20,349 bases of DNA from IMG/VR virus record IMGVR_UViG_3300022072_000183, positions 1 to 20,349 of that record, one strand, 5' to 3'. This document shows positions 3,735 through 18,702 of this stretch, one piece after another (positions within the stretch are counted from its first letter, which is position 1; each line of letters starts with the position of its first letter). This DNA is from a virus. Both the position numbers and the translations under genes were made by a program. The notes below the pieces were generated by a model, which worked only from the letters and a program-made list of their open reading frames with translations, had not been told where the DNA came from and searched no databases.

Positions 3735-3756
3735 GAGAGGGGATTGTTCCCCTCTC
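3735..3756 (-). terminator. Perfect 9-bp hairpin after the capsid genes
   Basis: GAGAGGGGA at 3735-3743 pairs without mismatch with TCCCCTCTC at 3748-3756 around a TTGT loop. It lies in the 48-nt gap between the 83-aa capsid-adjacent gene and the Lys-rich gene. No U-tract follows immediately on the minus strand (the RNA reads UAAUAUAGGAAAAA), so it is better read as an attenuator, RNase processing site or 3'-end stabiliser than as a textbook terminator. It may set a high capsid to low tail expression ratio. Confidence 0.6.
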
Positions 3757-3768
3757 CAAGTAATATAC

Positions 3769-4020
3769 TTATGCTAGTATTACTGTATTTAAGTTAGATC
3801 CACCATCGTTTACAGATACAATTAATATATCTACAACTGCGTTTGATCCACCACTATTTACAATAATAATATCTCCAGCACTTAGTTCTTTGTGAGACAA
3901 GATAAAGTAATCATCGTTGTCAATATCCCCAATAGCATCGCCATCTGTGTAATACCACATTGAATTGGAATCACCCATCTGAGAGATTTTTTTTACGGGA
4001 TTTGCTAATGCGTAAGCCAT
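3769..4020 (-). CDS. Small capsid-adjacent protein, unknown (possible decoration protein)
   Basis: 83 aa, starting MAYALANPVKKISQMGDS. It is acidic, rich in Asp/Gly/Ser/Val, and made of short beta-prone stretches (DDYFILSHKELSAGDIIIV, VDILIVSV, NLNTVILA), which fits a small all-beta protein. It immediately follows the major capsid gene (18-nt gap) and comes before a hairpin, so it is probably expressed at capsid level. Small beta proteins in this position are often capsid cement or head-fibre proteins, but nothing in the sequence proves that here. I have a weak memory of near-identical starts in pelagiphage genomes. Confidence 0.75.
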   Translation of the reverse strand: MAYALANPVKKISQMGDSNSMWYYTDGDAIGDIDNDDYFILSHKELSAGDIIIVNSGGSNAVVDILIVSVNDGGSNLNTVILA

Positions 4021-16372: not shown

Positions 16373-16604
16373 ATGGGAAAAGGAAATGGTAAACTTAAAC
16401 AACCAGACAGACCAACAGGCATTGGAGGTACTGATGCAATTCGTATTACAGAAGGCACATGGAAAGATCTTTGGCTTGAGAAAATTGGCAAAGTCGAAAG
16501 AAAAGACCTTTCAAGTGTACTGCCAGTTCAACTCGGAATATTTACCGAAGAATTTAATAGACGATGGTATCAGGAAGTTACTAAAGAAAGGGTTGTTAAT
16601 ATAG
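16290..16604 (+). CDS. Overlapping frame with strong RBS, possible nested gene
   Basis: 104 aa, starting MGDRLGIWNEINEMYTDDN. It has one of the best RBSs of the region, GGAGGAGGT with 7 nt to ATG. The first 28 codons overlap the 3' end of the previous frame; from 16373 it runs antiphase to the exonuclease gene for 232 nt, and its C-terminus (KNLIDDGIRKLLKKGLLI) still looks protein-like. It may be a true overprinted gene, or a translation initiation site whose short product couples ribosomes to the exonuclease start. I cannot decide from sequence alone. Confidence 0.45.
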   Translation: MGDRLGIWNEINEMYTDDNKLEKGALTRWEKEMVNLNNQTDQQALEVLMQFVLQKAHGKIFGLRKLAKSKEKTFQVYCQFNSEYLPKNLIDDGIRKLLKKGLLI

Positions 16605-17023
16605 GTGATATATTTACACACCCACAATATGATTACATCTATGGTAGTTTAGATGGAGTAGCAAAAGGCAAAGTGTTTGAAGCTAAACACGTTAATGCAT
16701 TTGTTAAAGATCAAAACATTATAGATAAATATTATGCTCAAGTGCAACATTACATGATGGTAACAGGTTTTAGTAAAGCTGTGTTATCTGTGTTAAGAGG
16801 TAACTTAGGTTATAATATATTTACTATTGAAAGGGATAAGCCTTTTCAAAGAAAACTAGAAATCGCCTGTCACTTATTTTGGTTTCATGTAATGAATAAC
16901 ATAGAGCCACCAGAATATATTGACTTTGATCTTATGGAGAAAATAAACAATGAAGATGACATCGAAAGACATTTTGGAACAGAAATATCCTCTGACGGCT
17001 GGTTACAAGGAAAACTCAACTAG
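16373..17023 (+). CDS. YqaJ-type recombination exonuclease
   Basis: 216 aa. It belongs to the lambda-exonuclease-like YqaJ nucleases, which resect double-stranded ends to give single strands for annealing. Visible: GIGGTDAIRI (about 16-25), VQLGIFTEEFNRRWY with Glu59 (52-66), YIYGSLDG with Asp94, VFEAKHV with the metal-site Glu103 and Lys105, and the YYAQVQHYMMVTG helix (about 119-131). Length is normal. AAAGGAG lies 10 nt before the ATG. It is the first of a recombination set with the annealing protein and SSB encoded downstream. Its 3' end overlaps the winged-helix gene by 74 nt. Confidence 0.92.
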   Translation: MGKGNGKLKQPDRPTGIGGTDAIRITEGTWKDLWLEKIGKVERKDLSSVLPVQLGIFTEEFNRRWYQEVTKERVVNIGDIFTHPQYDYIYGSLDGVAKGKVFEAKHVNAFVKDQNIIDKYYAQVQHYMMVTGFSKAVLSVLRGNLGYNIFTIERDKPFQRKLEIACHLFWFHVMNNIEPPEYIDFDLMEKINNEDDIERHFGTEISSDGWLQGKLN

Positions 17024-17276
17024 CAAAGAAGCAGCAAAAAAGATTGATTCACGATCTACTAATTTGCGAACAGAATGTTTAAAGATAATAAAACGACAAG
17101 GTAATTATGGTGCTACACCAGAAGAAGCAGCAGAAATATTATCAGAAAGTATATTATCTATTAGACCAAGATTTACCGAACTTAAATTATTGAAATATAT
17201 AATTGATTCTGGTGACAGAAGAATAAATAGTTTTGGTAGTACAACAAAAGTATGGAGGTACAATGACGACAGATAA
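16950..17276 (+). CDS. Winged-helix DNA-binding protein
   Basis: 108 aa. After a polar start overlapping the exonuclease gene, residues 33-104 read as a winged helix: STNLRTECLKIIKRQGNYGATPEEAAEIL (helices 1-2), SESILSIRPRFTELKLLKYI (recognition helix with the RPRFTEL segment), and IIDSGDRRINSFGSTTKVWRY (the wing). 'G-x-T-x-E-E-A ... RPR-x-x-E-L ... R-x-x-x-x-G-x-x-x-x-V-W' domains occur next to phage replication genes. It might bind the origin or regulate the recombination operon. TGGAGAAAA precedes the ATG at 16950; a second ATG lies at 16956. It overlaps the next gene by 14 nt. Confidence 0.82.
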   Translation: MKMTSKDILEQKYPLTAGYKENSTSKEAAKKIDSRSTNLRTECLKIIKRQGNYGATPEEAAEILSESILSIRPRFTELKLLKYIIDSGDRRINSFGSTTKVWRYNDDR

Positions 17277-17757
17277 AAGAAATGTATGGGATAGTTTAAA
17301 AGAAACTGATCCTAGATTTACTAAACGCATCAATAAAGGTTTTGGTGACATAACTACTATTGATCCACAATGGCAGATTATGAAAATAACAGAGGAGTTT
17401 GGTCCAGTAGGTACTGGTTGGACATACCGAGTTGATTATACATATCATGGTATGGACAGTAATCAAACTGCTGTTGTAGCTGCTGAAGTATCAGTAGCAA
17501 CTAATAAAAACAAAGAAGGCTTTTGGGATTTCTATGGGCCGGTTTGTTCACCTTTAAAAATGTATAGAAAAACTGGTGCATTAGATGACGAAGCACCAAA
17601 GAAAGCTATGACAGATGCATTAACAAAAGCGTTCAGTCACTTAGGACTTTGTTCTGATATATTTATGGGCAAATTTGATGATTCAAAATATGTTCAAAAG
17701 TTAGAAGAAAAATATTCTGGCAAATCAGATCCAAGCAAAGTTACTAAAACTACATAG
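17263..17757 (+). CDS. Single-strand annealing protein (DUF1071/Sak-like)
   Basis: 164 aa from ATG 17263, chosen over an in-frame start 30 nt upstream because GGAGGT lies 4 nt before it. It begins with MTTDKRNVWDSL and ETDPRFTKRINKG, then TTIDPQWQIMKITEEFGPVGTGWTYRVDY (about 31-60), a beta segment, and the characteristic DDEAPKKAMTDALTKAFSHLGLCSDIFMG helix region (about 117-145), as in phage annealing proteins that form rings on single-stranded DNA. Partnered with the YqaJ-type exonuclease it gives a RecE/RecT-like pathway. The exact subfamily is uncertain. A strong pseudoknot begins 4 nt after its stop. Confidence 0.8.
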   Translation: MTTDKRNVWDSLKETDPRFTKRINKGFGDITTIDPQWQIMKITEEFGPVGTGWTYRVDYTYHGMDSNQTAVVAAEVSVATNKNKEGFWDFYGPVCSPLKMYRKTGALDDEAPKKAMTDALTKAFSHLGLCSDIFMGKFDDSKYVQKLEEKYSGKSDPSKVTKTT

Positions 17758-17760
17758 TCG

Positions 17761-17818
17761 CCTAATAACTGGGGATAGCGTGCAGGTCAGTTATTGGGCT
17801 TGTCTCTTGCCTGTACGC
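17761..17818 (+). promoter_or_regulatory. H-type RNA pseudoknot in the leader of the 54-aa gene
   Basis: Stem 1: CCTAATAACTG (17761-17771) with CAGTTATTGGG (17788-17798), 11 bp including one U-G. Stem 2: GCGTGCAGG (17778-17786) with CCTGTACGC (17810-17818), 9 bp including one G-U. The strands interleave 1-2-1'-2', so both stems together form a classical H-type pseudoknot with loops of 6, 1 and 11 nt, sizes that are physically reasonable. It fills nearly all of the 78-nt gap and ends 9 nt before the AAAGGAG of the next gene. Confidence 0.75.
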
Positions 17819-17835
17819 AACTAAAAGGAGTAAGT

Positions 17836-18000
17836 ATGAATTATAAAGATAAATTTAAAGATCCAATAGTTTATGATAAATCTTTTGTTATTTATTCTTG
17901 TGATAAAGATTTAACAGCAGAAGAATTAAATAAAATATTAAAAGAATTTAATGTAACTACAAGAGAACTAGAAGATGATGAAGTCATCTATCATATATAG
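17836..18000 (+). CDS. 54-aa protein behind the pseudoknot
   Basis: 54 aa from ATG 17836, which has AAAGGAG 7 nt upstream; a frame opening 42 nt earlier would begin inside the pseudoknot. Sequence: MNYKDKFKDPIVYDKSFVIY, then SCDKDLTAEELNKILKEFNVTTRELEDDEVIYHI. A strand, a helix (TAEELNKILKEFN) and a strand suggest a small alpha/beta fold. Not recognised. It is the sole immediate target of the pseudoknotted leader, and is followed 8 nt later by the next gene, so the structure could also affect SSB production further on. Confidence 0.72.
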   Translation: MNYKDKFKDPIVYDKSFVIYSCDKDLTAEELNKILKEFNVTTRELEDDEVIYHI

Positions 18001-18008
18001 GAGGAAGT

Positions 18009-18305
18009 ATGACAGTAAATGATTTACTACATTCATTGGTATTACAAGGTCATAAAATACCAACTAAATTAATACCACCAATAGAAGCTGAATATTATTC
18101 TAACAGTAAAAAAGAATATAAAACAGTAGGTGAAATGGATTTATTTCATATGTTGTTTGCCTTTATTAAAGGCGTAGACAGTGATGTAAAAACACAAGAA
18201 AATACTGATAGAGCTTTAACAATTAATAAAGCTGATATAAGATGGCATTTGAGAAACGCTCAAACTTGTCTTAATAATATAGAAGGAGTATTAGATGATA
18301 AATAA
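18009..18305 (+). CDS. Hypothetical early protein
   Basis: 98 aa: MTVNDLLHSLVLQGHKIPTK, a middle with MDLFHMLFAFIKGVDSD, and a helical end (NKADIRWHLRNAQTCLNNIEGVL). Strong RBS (ATAGGAGGAAGT before ATG). Its stop overlaps the SSB start by 11 nt, so the two are probably coupled and it may serve replication or recombination. Family not recognised; no catalytic motif visible. Confidence 0.78.
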   Translation: MTVNDLLHSLVLQGHKIPTKLIPPIEAEYYSNSKKEYKTVGEMDLFHMLFAFIKGVDSDVKTQENTDRALTINKADIRWHLRNAQTCLNNIEGVLDDK

Positions 18306-18702
18306 AGTAATCCTATTAGGTCGTGTTGGTAGCGATCCTGAAGTAAAAGTATCTACCAGAGAAGAAAAGTTTGCTGGTTTTTCATTAGCAACTTCAGAAA
18401 GATTTAAAAATAAATCTGGTGAGTGGCAAGAAAAAACACAATGGCATAGACTTGTATGTTGGGATCCTAACATTGCAAAAACAATAGAGCAATATGTTAA
18501 GAAAGGCACTATGTTATACATAGAAGGTCAAATAGAAACCAGACAGTATGACCACAATGGTGAAACCAAATATGTAACAGAAATAATTGTACCTAGATAC
18601 AAAGGTATTCTTAAAATGATTGGGGGCAAGAGTGACAGTTCTAAAGTTTCAACGCAAACTAACACTAGAACAGAAAGTCCAACAGAAGATATCCCGTTCT
18701 AA
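18295..18702 (+). CDS. ssb: Single-stranded DNA-binding protein
   Basis: 135 aa, bacterial-type SSB. The OB fold runs from MINKVILLGRVGSDPEVK through FAGFSLATSERFKNKSGEWQEKTQWHRLVCW (about 26-56) and YVKKGTMLYIEGQIETRQYDHNGETKYVTEIIV (about 68-101). A short flexible linker and the acidic tip ending DIPF follow; this tip recruits host or phage partner proteins. It protects single strands made by the YqaJ-type exonuclease and works with the annealing protein. AAGGAG lies 8 nt before the ATG. The linker (about 20 residues) is short compared with E. coli SSB. Confidence 0.95.
   Translation: MINKVILLGRVGSDPEVKVSTREEKFAGFSLATSERFKNKSGEWQEKTQWHRLVCWDPNIAKTIEQYVKKGTMLYIEGQIETRQYDHNGETKYVTEIIVPRYKGILKMIGGKSDSSKVSTQTNTRTESPTEDIPF

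Follow-up and report, generated by a model that had tools for sequence, protein, structure and literature searches.

A plus-strand RNA pseudoknot that is under selection sits where the recombination block meets the single-stranded DNA-binding protein (SSB) block in a marine family of phages related to Pelagibacter phages. Among the regulatory pseudoknots of phages it represents a new RNA family, and it is absent from Rfam. In the window, by which we mean the whole stretch of 20,349 nucleotides analyzed (from IMG/VR record IMGVR_UViG_3300022072_000183), the complete H-type pseudoknot spans positions 17760-17818 and fills the gap between the stop codon of a gene very probably encoding a single-strand annealing protein (SSAP) and the ribosome-binding site (RBS) that follows (Table 1). 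Stem 1 (S1) is composed of 12 base pairs, one of them a U-G, with G17760-C17799 as the outermost pair. Stem 2 (S2) is composed of 9 base pairs including one G-U, a tenth pair (U17787-G17809) being possible, and loop 2 (L2) is a single U.

Table 1. Positions of the pseudoknot segments and of the neighboring genes in the window.
Feature	Position	Strand	Remarks
YqaJ-type recombination exonuclease	16373-17023	+	Upstream block, 16373-17276
108-aa gene	16950-17276	+	Overlaps both the exonuclease and the SSAP gene
SSAP (very probable), RAD52 fold	17263-17757	+	Fold from Foldseek; stop codon 17755-17757
S1, 5' strand, GCCUAAUAACUG	17760-17771	+	Begins 2 nt past the SSAP stop codon; read directly
Loop 1 (L1), GGGAUA, 6 nt	17772-17777	+	Variable in the family, mostly 3-7 nt
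S2, 5' strand, GCGUGCAGG	17778-17786	+	Read directly
S1, 3' strand, CAGUUAUUGGGC	17788-17799	+	Read directly; co-varies with the 5' strand (18 distinct sequences)
Loop 3 (L3), UUGUCUCUUG, 10 nt	17800-17809	+	Other members 9-15 nt with a GUUCUUC-like pyrimidine motif
S2, 3' strand, CCUGUACGC	17810-17818	+	Ends 17 nt upstream of the next AUG
Shine-Dalgarno (SD) of the 54-aa gene, GGAG	17826-17829	+	7 nt past the pseudoknot; read directly
54-aa gene, function not assigned	17836-18000	+	No confident family match
98-aa gene, function not assigned	18009-18305	+	8 nt past the 54-aa gene; overlaps SSB by 11 nt
SSB, single-stranded DNA-binding protein	18295-18702	+	Pfam PF00436, E 1.6e-29; PHROG 44

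The fold was scored with a scanner that sums nearest-neighbor stacks over both stems. The window pseudoknot attains −40.9, as compared with −26.1 for the second-best site on either strand of the window and with best scores of −24.4 to −28.1 in ten shuffled windows, and the lowest value among 1,000 dinucleotide shuffles of the 95-nt stretch was −29.8. The structure itself is nearly certain. A reading of the sequence alone (hereafter the sequence-only reading) had placed an H-type pseudoknot downstream of the annealing-protein stop (17755-17757) and ahead of the SD that serves the 54-aa gene (start codon ATG at 17836) and had judged chance interleaving of two such stems unlikely, and fold, position, and judgment are all borne out by the directly readable stems and these scores. 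Its dimensions for S2 (9 bp), L1 (6 nt), and L2 (1 nt) likewise stand, while S1 has 12 rather than 11 bp and L3 has 10 rather than 11 nt. RNAfold, which is unable to represent pseudoknots, keeps S2 and returns a z of only −1.5, so that ordinary folding would miss the element.

With the upstream SSAP gene as query, 80 relatives were retrieved from IMG/VR, in 76 of which the SSAP end and the following sequence could be read. The pseudoknot lies directly past the SSAP stop in 59 of these 76 SSAP-linked viral contigs and is absent from 17. Across the family, S1 measures 10-13 bp (in some members with one bulge), S2 9-11 bp, L1 mostly 3-7 nt, L2 0-1 nt, and L3 9-15 nt, and L3 keeps a GUUCUUC-like motif. 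The summed stem length stays nearly constant at about 21-24 bp while the sequence changes. In most members, S1 starts 1-3 nt past the SSAP stop, and S2 ends 14-24 nt ahead of the next AUG.

Both stems are maintained by compensatory change. Among 18 distinct sequences, 97.2% of cells pair, double changes occur in 14 of the 18 scored pairs, and the covariation score was reached by none of 500 shuffles; when the partner was shifted by 1-3 columns as a control, pairing fell to 22-45%. MAFFT misaligns the outer S1 pairs between members differing in stem length; the pairing and shuffle counts are taken from consistent columns only, and the wobble counts and E values from a corrected alignment. Under a null model in which the substitutions along the tree are retained, five of the 2,080 column pairs of the corrected alignment have E < 1 (0.02, 0.05, 0.06, 0.24, and 0.5), and all five are stem pairs, with both stems represented. 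The expectation of the sequence-only reading that homologous leaders would retain both stems, with covariation, is realized in 18 distinct versions. Wobble cells comprise 31 G-U against a single A-C, which places the function in the plus-strand RNA. Sequence turnover is fast while pairing is fixed: the SSAP genes of the window and of one relative (L024) are 92% identical, their pseudoknots 72%. In two members (L046 and L047), the SSAP stop lies inside S1, yet GUCGCY is retained there though it is coding. This retention and the conserved unpaired L3 motif suggest specific recognition.

A covariance model (R1) consisting of S2 plus sequence detected one true copy per locus, always on the plus strand and always after the SSAP gene. 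A single copy is present in each of 12 whole phage records carrying the element (up to 37 kb), and a second R1 match in one record (G009) is an antisense echo. Two gene-independent scans of IMG/VR, using two S2 sequences, found no true pseudoknot outside the post-SSAP context. In loci fetched via the SSB gene, the element is found only where SSAP is also present, and the covariance model did not find it in non-SSAP loci with a homologous SSB. The sequence-only reading had suggested marine viral metagenomes and Pelagibacter phages as places to search for homologs; the model recovered copies from viral metagenome relatives (IMG/VR) and none from HTVC035P, Lederberg, or Hodr (three related isolates), and no isolate carrying the element was found. 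The record for Hodr (L203, OQ414635.1), named EXVC031P Hodr, has locus tags 'EXVC032PBaldr', an apparent annotation mix-up. None of 289 alphaproteobacterial genomes, a set that was not SAR11-centered and had no positive control, contained the element, and a pseudoknot scan of 31 loci without it returned scattered weak candidates only. A GC-rich phage contig with an SSB homolog (L305, about 1460-1515) has a pseudoknot-like fold of 12 bp + 7 bp that begins 3 nt past a stop codon and may be due to chance.

In a maximum-likelihood tree of SSAPs, the element is confined to one clade with support 97/96. The L130-L134 lineage is without it, but L075, inside that lineage, carries it. Since presence and absence require four label changes on this tree, loss occurred within the clade, and regain by recombination is probable.

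The assignment of the upstream gene as an SSAP, which we consider very probable, follows from its RAD52 fold and its position after the YqaJ exonuclease. The top 14 PDB matches to the predicted structure (mean pLDDT 62, a modest value) are all RAD52, with a best E of 4.1e-4 (Foldseek), and the HTVC035P relative is annotated as an annealing protein. PHROG families 7838 and 2489 label this RAD52-fold protein (17263-17757) 'exonuclease', probably by transfer from the neighboring gene.

The element is located within a run of closely packed genes. In the window, the exonuclease gene overlaps the 108-aa gene by 74 nt, which in turn overlaps the SSAP gene by 14 nt. The 78 nt between the SSAP and 54-aa genes are filled by the pseudoknot and SD, followed by a gap of 8 nt before the 98-aa gene and the 11-nt overlap of the latter with SSB. 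In 15 checked operons (the window and 14 others), the 75-89 nt after SSAP form the sole gap longer than 14 nt until SSB, all remaining junctions being overlaps or gaps of at most 14 nt. SSB also lies downstream in 24 of 25 further pseudoknot loci, the exception (L012) ending 616 nt after SSAP. The element is accordingly intercistronic and not the 5' leader of an early operon for which it had been taken.

The gene that follows is variable. Occupants of the slot include genes of 54, 67, and 97/98 aa, a second 54-aa gene, MAKK-type genes, others, and SSB itself. The element directly precedes ssb in L048-L053 and L067, and elsewhere mostly 1-3 overlapping or closely spaced genes intervene. The initial tie to the 54-aa gene is not upheld: conservation tracks the upstream SSAP, and because the gene after the element varies, the 54-aa gene is unlikely to be what the element serves. 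In relatives without the element, the SSAP stop mostly overlaps the next start (e.g., TAATG), with the SD within the SSAP gene, and a few have a gap of about 11-15 nt or more. Genes of the 67-aa family, for example, overlap SSAP in L220-L230, which have no element. Given these arrangements, the element stands in for the stop-start overlap as a structured boundary that has an initiation site of its own.

Several further observations concern this region. In near-identical phages, different small genes fill the slot after the pseudoknot (17836-18008 in the window; L012, L019, L041, L054, L058, and L082), and the exchange occurs right at the start codon, making the slot a gene-swap hotspot. L046 has about 80 extra nt between pseudoknot and RBS (1948-2022), closed by a 7-bp stem (ATGTAGC...GCTACAT) around an unusual G-rich middle; this insert has no Rfam match, and its folding energy is not unusual. 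In L048 (and L049-L053), the SD of SSB is situated after the pseudoknot in the loop of a small hairpin, UUGUUA-GGAGG-UAACAA. HTVC035P (L091, about 3750-3815) and Lederberg (L092, at the matching place) have a long hairpin after the gene following SSAP, with arms AGCAGGGTGGGG...CCCCACTCTGCT and TTGGTGGGGTGAGG...CCTCATCCCGCCAA and a loop that starts with TTTTTTT and contains CCCTTTCT. This hairpin is a different structured element in a similar place.

We tentatively propose, giving the proposal slightly less than an even chance, that the pseudoknot is a decoupling operator that makes the SSB block initiate independently and that is bound by SSB or SSAP as feedback. We infer that gene overlap reflects translational coupling; from its anatomy, the pseudoknot would act as a cis-acting RNA element in a polycistronic early mRNA, separating the coupled blocks exonuclease-108 aa-SSAP and 0-3 small variable genes-SSB. 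The SSB block would then initiate independently at the RBS immediately following the pseudoknot. Once the supply of phage SSB or RAD52-like SSAP exceeds that of single-stranded DNA, the protein would read the folded RNA together with the pyrimidine loop that it exposes, and the bound protein would block the adjacent initiation site, affording a feedback circuit that works as the gene 32 operator of T4 does. Several observations favor such an operator: the compensatory changes in both stems, the plus-strand wobble bias, the fit of the pseudoknot into the sole long gap ahead of SSB, the presence of SSB downstream in 24 of 25 further loci, the stop-start overlaps in most relatives that have no element, the single copy per record, the conserved L3 and GUCGCY sequences, and the finding that the following gene can be swapped while the element stays. 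As counter-evidence, the sister phages of the L071/L131 lineage have an SSB identical to that of L075 over the first 60 residues but no element, so the element is dispensable for that SSB. A downstream SSB is itself weak evidence for an operator, since phages that have no element likewise carry SSB after SSAP.

A passive stability or processing barrier in the mRNA is almost as likely as an operator read by a protein. A protein-bound operator and a processing barrier were both among the suggestions of the sequence-only reading, and they are the two leading explanations here. As a barrier, the stems would stack coaxially into a stable, quasi-continuous helix of about 21-24 bp that stops exonucleases or sets a processing boundary, such that the exonuclease-SSAP and SSB halves of the transcript decay at different rates with no need for a protein ligand, and this helix would also keep terminated ribosomes from reinitiating. 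The near constancy of the summed stem length (about two helical turns) despite sequence change is consistent with such a barrier, as are the location exactly at the stop codon in the sole long gap of the operon and a search for an intrinsic terminator at the element, which found none. A plain hairpin would suffice for this purpose, however; conservation of a pseudoknot and of an unpaired motif in L3 points to something more, and the motif favors a specific reader over a purely mechanical barrier. Alternatively, L3 (GUUCUUC) could serve as an anti-Shine-Dalgarno through which SSAP translation represses the SSB block, an arrangement that we consider improbable. With S1 formed, L3 would be stretched along S1 and the SD would be free, and a ribosome terminating at the SSAP stop would open S1 and allow L3 to pair with the SD. 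Known footprints suggest that a ribosome standing on the stop codon would occupy most of the 5' strand of S1, and the summed L3-SD duplex energy is −105.4 as against −71.1 ± 7.4 for shuffled L3 (0 of 500 shuffles). Nevertheless, a single inherited motif lies behind this statistic, the window taken by itself does not reach significance (146 of 500 shuffles), L046, L041, and L082 are weak, and L3 does not track the changes in SD that accompany a swap of the next gene.

Compact H-type pseudoknots near the RBS are a common aptamer form, as in SAM-II, SAM-V, and preQ1, and the marine element shares this architecture. The sequence-only reading had entertained an undescribed riboswitch while noting a misfit to the consensus of these RNAs; the misfit is upheld, as the element is unlike every Rfam family even with permissive filters, and the riboswitch idea fares poorly. 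A metabolite riboswitch of a new class is very unlikely, as there is no metabolic or ligand-gene context, both stems turn over, the conserved unpaired sequence is limited to the pyrimidine-rich loop motif, and the element occurs in one phage clade only and in 0 of the 289 alphaproteobacterial genomes, where there was no positive control. Furthermore, S2 ends before the SD rather than including it. More improbable still is a DNA element, whether as an anchor for the recombination that exchanges genes in the slot or as a site of folded single-stranded DNA. The next gene is exchanged right at the 3' border of the element, and a folded single-stranded DNA role was once suggested for the STAXI pseudoknots near ssb genes (PMC2864571). 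However, wobbles are tolerated in the plus-strand sense only, orientation and position between stop codon and SD are strict, and a recombination anchor would conserve sequence, not pairing.

Other candidates were rejected. A minus-strand or DNA reading is at odds with the wobble counts (31 G-U versus 1 A-C). For programmed frameshifting or readthrough, the junctions, read by eye, share no slippery heptamer, the stops are TAG or TAA, and an RBS and ATG follow the stop. A type III toxin-antitoxin RNA (ToxI) would form tandem repeats, whereas the element is single copy; the next genes vary and include ssb, and no toxN-like match was found among the window genes. No intrinsic terminator is present at this place.

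With regard to known RNAs, the element can be likened by position and topology, no sequence relation being shown, to the gene 32 operator of T4 and RB69. Both are H-type RNA pseudoknots that precede a Shine-Dalgarno within a phage operon for recombination/replication, and both head a unit making a single-strand-binding protein. The operator pseudoknot of gene 32 (gp32, SSB) persists in structure while diverging in sequence and is absent from RB49 (PMC535899, PMC3014915); the marine element also diverges in sequence with its structure kept and is absent in some relatives. It differs in its length of 59-66 nt with far longer stems (about 28 nt in T4), in its placement 14-24 nt before the AUG (about 40 nt in T4), and in usually having other genes between it and ssb. 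In T4, gp32 blocks initiation at this operator, the second part of which is an unstructured UUAAA/UAAA-rich tract of >40 nt that lies 3' of the pseudoknot and covers the RBS (PMC535899, PMC3014915). No such tract is enriched over the marine family (30 UAAA versus 22.7 expected, a count equaled or exceeded in 17 of 300 shuffles); in the window by itself there are 4 UAAA versus 1.05 expected. Because the tract is missing and protein binding is putative, we do not file the element under the T4 gene 32 family. It is conceivable but, in our estimation, doubtful that the element is a viral pseudoknot operator of independent origin, the second of its kind, which exerts autogenous control over a DNA-recombination module and possibly senses SSAP translation directly via S1 opening and an anti-SD loop.

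STAXI RNAs (RF01728) are likewise pseudoknots near ssb and other DNA-handling genes but occur as 2-3 tandem copies with UUCG tetraloops, as opposed to the single copy without UUCG tetraloops found here. The RF01728 covariance model has no match in the window; it gave none in a separate run either, but as it was silent in the control genomes of that run too, the window search is the main test. A search of Rfam 15 with the whole window and three members under permissive filters yielded chance matches only, none at or above the gathering cut-off. No description of this element or of other pseudoknots in pelagiphages was found in the literature searched, the scope of which excluded most subscription papers.

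The element defines a covariation-supported RNA family without an Rfam entry. A structurally conserved pseudoknot that heads units making SSB, in phages whose hosts are very abundant marine bacteria, would add an unrelated second case of such an arrangement and would bring with it many natural variants and natural losses. Phage operons can evidently gain or lose a structured RNA boundary in place of a stop-start overlap, an exchange that is directly testable with reporters. Positioned at the boundary between SSAP and SSB, the element probably controls how much is made of the second block, which ends in the single-strand-binding protein.
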